A stretch of 64,000 bases of DNA, from contig JAKITD010000002.1 of the NCBI GenBank assembly GCA_021648265.1, positions 1-64,000 of the forward strand. The letters are read 5' to 3'. The DNA is from Flavobacteriaceae bacterium (GTDB taxonomy: Bacteria > Bacteroidota > Bacteroidia > Flavobacteriales > Flavobacteriaceae). Positions 36,144 through 37,750 of the stretch are shown piece by piece. The notes under the pieces were generated by a model. The model did not search any database. It saw nothing but the letters and a program-made list of their open reading frames with translations, and was not told the DNA's origin. How positions within the stretch are numbered: position 1 is the stretch's first letter; every line of letters starts with the position of its first letter. The position numbers and the translations under genes are program-made.

Positions 36144-37403
36144 ATGAAAAACTTTTTTATAGTAATTATTTTTTTATTTGGAGTTAATAGTATTTCTCAA
36201 GAGATTAGAATTGATACTATTAATATTTTAGGAAATAAGAAAACAAAAACTTCATTTATCACTAAATTAATTTTTGTGAAATCAGGAATGGTATTGGATT
36301 CTGTTGTGTTAAAAGAAGATATTCAAAGATTGAAAAGATTACCATCAATATCTCATGCTTTTTTTGAAATTATTTACTCAAAAAACAAATCTTGTATTGT
36401 ACAATATAATATAGTTGAAAATTTAACTATTATCCCATCAGTAAATATTTACACAACAAACGATGATGAGTTTGCGTACAGGATTGGTATAAACGAGTTC
36501 AATTTATTTGGTCAAAATATTGCAATTGGTGGGTTTTATCAAAACGATATTTACAGTTCGTATGCAATTAATTTTAGAGTTCCCTATTTATTTGGAAAGC
36601 AATTTGGGTTAGCATTGAATCATCAAAATTTAACTACTCAAGAACCTATTTATTTTGATGATACTACAGCAAGTTATAAGTACAATAACACATCGTACGA
36701 AATAATAGGTCTTTATGAATTTAATTCTAAAAATAAAGTTGAATTAGGGGTTAATTTTTTCAGTGAAAACTATTCTTTTAAATCTGGAGCAACAAGCCCA
36801 GATATTCCCCAGAATTTTGAAGTAGATAAGATACTTTATAAAACCGGCTATGAATATTCCAACCTAGATTACGACCATCAATATGTTTCAGGCTTTAGAA
36901 GTACTTTAATTTTACAATATGTAACTTCAGGAGATGTTCGTGTTTCAGATTTCTTAATAGGATATAACGATTTTTATTTTTATAAAAGAATTGGGAAAAA
37001 AGGAAATTGGGCTAATAAGTTACGCCTTGGACTTTCTAGTAATGATAAAAGCCCCTTTGCACCATTCACTGTAGATAATAATGTAAATATTCGTGGTGTT
37101 GGAAATGAAATTGATAGAGGAACAGGAGCCATAATTATTAATACGGAATTCAGATATACTTTATATGAAAAAAAATGGTTCATTTTACAAAGTAATACCT
37201 TTATAGATGCAGGTACTTGGCGAAACCCTGGCGGTAAGTTTACTGATTTTACAAGCTCCGAGAATATTAGAATATATCCAGGAATAGGTTTGCGATTTAT
37301 TCATAAAAAAATATATAACGCTATTTTTAGAATAGATTATGGGGTAGGAATTACAAAAAATGCTACCAATGGTTTTGTTATTGGAGTTGGTCAATATTTT
37401 TAA
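36144..37403 (+). CDS. Omp85/BamA-superfamily outer membrane protein with a POTRA domain
   Basis: IRIDTINILGNKKTKTSFITKLIFVKSGMVLD POTRA; barrel C-terminus GFVIGVGQYF. Confidence 0.82.
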   Translation: MKNFFIVIIFLFGVNSISQEIRIDTINILGNKKTKTSFITKLIFVKSGMVLDSVVLKEDIQRLKRLPSISHAFFEIIYSKNKSCIVQYNIVENLTIIPSVNIYTTNDDEFAYRIGINEFNLFGQNIAIGGFYQNDIYSSYAINFRVPYLFGKQFGLALNHQNLTTQEPIYFDDTTASYKYNNTSYEIIGLYEFNSKNKVELGVNFFSENYSFKSGATSPDIPQNFEVDKILYKTGYEYSNLDYDHQYVSGFRSTLILQYVTSGDVRVSDFLIGYNDFYFYKRIGKKGNWANKLRLGLSSNDKSPFAPFTVDNNVNIRGVGNEIDRGTGAIIINTEFRYTLYEKKWFILQSNTFIDAGTWRNPGGKFTDFTSSENIRIYPGIGLRFIHKKIYNAIFRIDYGVGITKNATNGFVIGVGQYF

Positions 37404-37617
37404 TATGACTATCGGATTCGTTACATATAATTCACTTGGACTATATAATTGATAACGTGATGATTATGTTTTGCCAAAAACGAAATTAAATTATAATCCG
37501 TTAAAAATGTGACAAAACCAACCCTTAAAATTGTCTTGCAAAAGGCACTACATCGCAAATCACTTTTATACAGCTAGTTACAAAATATTATTTTGTGCAA
37601 TCAATCCGATAGTCATA
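37404..37617. mobile_element. MITE-like non-autonomous element with 15-bp perfect TIRs and 8-bp TSD
   Basis: TIRs TATGACTATCGGATT (37404-37418) / AATCCGATAGTCATA (37603-37617); TSD ATTTTTAA at 37396-37403 and 37618-37625; no ORF. Confidence 0.88.
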
Positions 37618-37750
37618 ATTTTTAATCTTGACACTATTTCAACTAGTGAGTAAGTTTAAAATAGATTCGTTTGCTCTAAATCGAAGCTTTGAAATAATTC
37701 CTCTTTATAAAAGATTGTTGTATTTTGAAAACCATTTATTTTTTTAATAT

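Follow-up and report, generated by a model that had tools for sequence, protein, structure and literature searches.

We identified a 214-bp element that sits directly behind an omp85 gene and is, with a probability that we put at about 0.93, a MITE with IS1595-family TIRs, moved in trans by an IS1595-type DDE transposase and inserted in an 8-bp staggered manner. We assigned it to IS1595 because its ends, the length of its target-site duplication (TSD), its AT-rich target and the transposase family all agree. The element was found in a window of 64,000 nucleotides, which is the whole stretch of DNA analysed, and the features of the insertion are as follows.

36144 to 37403, plus strand: host gene omp85, encoding a POTRA/Omp85-type outer-membrane protein of 419 aa that ends ...GQYF-TAA.
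37396 to 37403, no strand: left TSD ATTTTTAA, read directly; it includes the omp85 stop codon TAA and is single in the empty site of G010.
37404 to 37617, plus strand: the MITE, 214 bp, probably a non-autonomous IS1595-type element, judged from its copies, its empty sites and a TIR in common with IS1595-family transposase remnants.
37404 to 37418, plus strand: left TIR TATGACTATCGGATT, 15 bp, identical across all three copies.
37581 to 37597, no strand: inner palindrome ACAAAATA-T-TATTTTGT, in three of three copies, with no T-run after it.
37603 to 37617, minus strand: right TIR, read directly.
37618 to 37625, no strand: right TSD ATTTTTAA, read directly.

The initial annotation had described 37396-37625 as a complete element without coding capacity and with an inner hairpin, ACAAAATA-T-TATTTTGT, near its right end, and our analysis bore out all three points. 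The hairpin was present on direct reading. The insertion junctions read ...CAATATTTTTAA then TATGACTATCGGATT...AATCCGATAGTCATA then ATTTTTAATC..., and both the 15-bp TIRs and the 8-bp TSD ATTTTTAA of this copy were perfect. We scanned the window for perfect inverted repeats of 10 or 15 bp, 100-450 bp apart, flanked by 8-bp direct repeats. The results showed that this was the only site in the window to combine a perfect inverted repeat of at least 10 bp at that spacing with flanking 8-bp direct repeats, and 20 Markov-1 simulated windows contained no such structure. The 214 bp held no ORF longer than 45 aa; Pfam gave no match for its two longest small ORFs, Rfam and the plasmid search gave none for the element, and the phage search returned weak chance matches only. 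The element is thus, as a MITE should be, short (<500 bp), bounded by TIRs and free of a transposase.

We then considered further copies. The host assembly (2.83 Mb, 112 contigs, 92% complete) contained two additional complete copies, C9:10116-10329 (minus) and C85:1691-1904 (plus), so the check proposed at the outset did uncover other copies of the element within the same genome. All three copies measured 214 bp, differed pairwise at 2-3 positions and lay at unrelated loci; the family is therefore multi-copy, as expected of a MITE, with three members being few compared with many MITE families. The C85 copy carried a perfect TSD (8/8), TAGTTTTA, and the C9 copy a mutated one, TAAAATTA/TTATATTA (6/8), so that the 8-bp duplication expected for the IS1595 family was perfect at two of the three copies and 6/8 at the third. 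A search of the other 95 genomes of relatives revealed no MITE copy, and the 24-bp end pattern, with at most 3 mismatches allowed, occurred across 400 genomes of the family only in the host and at one site in G350. Interior DNA matches of 25-29 bp in G024, G032 and G007, none of them with element ends, were taken as chance, as were single near-TIR sites (1-2 mismatches) on C81, C80 and C68, for which no convincing partner end was seen.

A 45-aa minus-strand ORF (MRCSAFCKTI...) was open in all three copies, as would be expected if the repeat were a small gene unit for a conserved peptide. We find this reading hardly credible, because the ORF starts with TTG and has neither a Pfam match nor a plasmid tblastn match, a stretch of 214 bp can readily contain an open frame this long, and the copies differ too little for a test of purifying selection.

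To assess the MITE insertions further, we compared the three loci with those of relatives. In G010, a genome of the same genus, the sequence at the orthologous omp85 site is CAATATTTTTAATTTAAG; it has ATTTTTAA only once and lacks the element, and a GH113-type gene lies downstream in synteny. What is missing from this empty site is precisely the element and one TSD, and an empty site of this kind was the check on insertion that the initial annotation had named. At the C85 locus, G012, also of the same genus, reads AATATAGTTTTACACACC and is uninserted, with TAGTTTTA present once; G012 and three other genomes were without the element at the C9 locus. Target duplication on insertion and an empty-site orthologue, both expected of a MITE, were thus found. 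Because the relatives show empty or element-free sites, the insertions are confined to the host lineage among the genomes available. The earlier claim of recent transposition is supported, although without a date, by the absence at three sites in available relatives together with the 2-3 differences between copies.

The insertion lies exactly at the stop of the omp85 gene, as first described, since ORF 36144-37403 ends with the TAA contained in the left TSD. The Omp85 protein kept its length and its C-terminal GQYF, because the duplicated target retains this TAA, and the G010 orthologue (75% identical) is of equal length and likewise ends in GQYF.

Each of the three copies is located 3' of a gene, at 0 bp past omp85, about 29 bp past a DEAD-box helicase gene and about 95 bp past a trkH-like gene, and the latter two both stand between convergent genes. 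For the transcript, the predicted fold is a closed stem, with z of about -4 to -5. These observations would suit an element that omp85 and the other genes had taken over as a 3'-end/terminator or RNA-stability hairpin and that was retained for this function. We nevertheless judge this unlikely: the TIRs by themselves would produce a strong predicted fold, no terminator-like site was recognised in the element, the copies are not all in the same orientation with respect to the gene upstream of them, and relatives do without the element. It is equally doubtful that the MITE family pursues a safe-site strategy by targeting gene 3' ends (convergent-gene gaps and a stop codon) and also gives the upstream transcript a hairpin 3' end, and three copies are too few to establish any site preference other than for AT-rich intergenic DNA. 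The location 3' of genes is therefore a lead only, and a cis-regulatory or terminator role of the element is possible but unsupported.

We next return to the interpretation as an IS1595-type MITE and to the source of its transposase. The sole other exact TATGACTATCGGATT in the host genome is at C66:799-813, where it directly follows the stop codon that closes an ORF of 119 aa. This ORF matched PF12762 DDE_Tnp_IS1595 (8.8e-15) and NCBIfam NF033547 IS1595 (5.6e-22), both above cut-off, and the right end of the MITE had 22/25 bp in common with the end of this IS. Among the three IS families with 8-bp TSDs that had been named as candidates (ISL3, IS256 and IS1595), the link is therefore to IS1595; no link of the TIR to an IS256 or ISL3 transposase was found, since the only other exact TIR in the genome sits on an IS1595-type gene. 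As expected for a MITE, its TIRs match those of autonomous elements, exactly over 15 bp in the C66 remnant and approximately at the ends of intact and decayed IS1595 elements. The 214-bp element has no DDE_Tnp_IS1595 transposase of its own, which is also expected for a MITE, and is not classed as an IS1595 insertion sequence itself.

The C66 transposase gene is truncated on its 5' side and at about C66:445 adjoins a 98-bp dispersed repeat, with a portion of a different IS on the far side of it. The 92% complete host assembly gave no further IS1595-type transposase with a matching end, and no intact IS with the exact TIR TATGACTATCGGATT was found there or elsewhere searched. Because the assembly yielded no intact matching transposase, the MITE family may now be immobile in its host. 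The MITE interior past about 25 bp matched none of the IS pieces seen, so that an origin by simple internal deletion of an IS is at most putative.

The neighbouring repeat on C66 (L011, 348-445) also occurs on C92, C106 and C112, with matches of 97-102 bp and 99-100% identity at these three other places; it contains two hairpins, TACCTCG...CGAGGTA and CGACGCAAGCGTCG, and is REP-like by resemblance only. The second element there (L011, 1-347) encodes an IS1-like/IS1595-like zinc-ribbon transposase; the contig end cuts the C66 version, and a longer one is present on C50 (L030). The minus-strand zinc-ribbon ORF at the start of C66 was rejected as the missing half of the C66 IS1595, as it belongs to this different element related to the one on C50.

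IS1595 elements with similar ends were observed in other genomes. IS1595 remnants from two other genera end in close variants of the TIR, and in two further genomes intact IS1595-type elements are bounded by more distant variants. In G350, of another genus, a decayed transposase C-terminus VVIDSVSCKWTKNV is followed by TATGACTATCGGATA, with the end TATGACTATCGGAT. G283 carries a decayed full-length IS of 1045 bp with ends TATAACTATCTGATT and TATGACTATCATAAA, and its left end has 19/25 bp in common with that of the MITE. The intact transposase relatives in G587 and G619 are 46-56% identical and belong to elements of about 1.0-1.1 kb, whose ends are WATGAATGTCCGCA and AATGACTATCAG, respectively. 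Two of the copies in G587 are flanked by perfect, AT-rich TSDs of 8 bp, and the G619 element showed no clear TSD.

The flanks of the IS and MITE ends are alike, being TATTTTTA in two other genera (L032, 1794-1801; L064, just past the IS end) and TAGTTTTA and ATTTTTAA at the MITE (L004 and L005). Their likeness suggests a target preference for T-runs with TA borders.

The mechanism we propose builds on ends, copies, TSDs, empty sites and a partner-remnant family that were all observed directly. The MITE ends would be recognised over about 15-25 bp by an IS1595-type DDE transposase acting in trans, which would put the MITE into an AT-rich 8-bp target, where the staggered cut would give rise to the 8-bp duplication. 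At omp85, the target was ATTTTTAA at the stop codon, and the duplicated TAA keeps the reading frame. We infer the action in trans from the ends, the TSDs and the empty sites. The parent of the C66 remnant presumably supplied the transposase, and this likely source IS survives in the assembly only as the truncated 3' remnant. Three observations run against this explanation: the lack of an intact IS with the exact TIR, the mismatch between the MITE interior and the IS pieces seen, and the imperfect TSD of the C9 copy.

These findings add an IS1595-derived MITE family for a bacterium with flavobacteria-like relatives, with both the empty sites and the decaying partner visible. The element is genuine but of an ordinary class of small mobile DNA, and it is a new family within the already described class of IS1595-derived MITEs; it can help annotation and serve to mark recent IS1595 activity, and current understanding is unchanged. 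It has been documented that 8-bp TSDs are typical of the IS1595 family (PMC8101967) and that ISApl4, a member of this family, has 14-bp TIRs and AT-rich 8-bp repeats (PMC12561309). The present element resembles them in its 8-bp AT-rich TSDs and short, near-perfect TIRs, and its TIR ends an IS1595-type transposase gene remnant; unlike the ISs of the family, it is 214 bp long and has no transposase, and its partner is seen as a 3' remnant only. In Bacteroidetes, a MITE with an internal minisatellite has been described from Porphyromonas gingivalis (PMC4596501); the minisatellite sets it apart from our element, and the two are likened by description only. An IS1595-derived MITE of 165 bp, from ISHwa6, has been described in Haloquadratum walsbyi (7 copies, IR 25, DR 8; PMC3852290). 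Likened by description and not by sequence, our element is similarly short and non-coding, with IS1595-type ends, an 8-bp TSD and several copies per genome, whereas it differs from this MITE of an archaeal host in its length of 214 bp, its three copies and its perfect 15-bp TIR.
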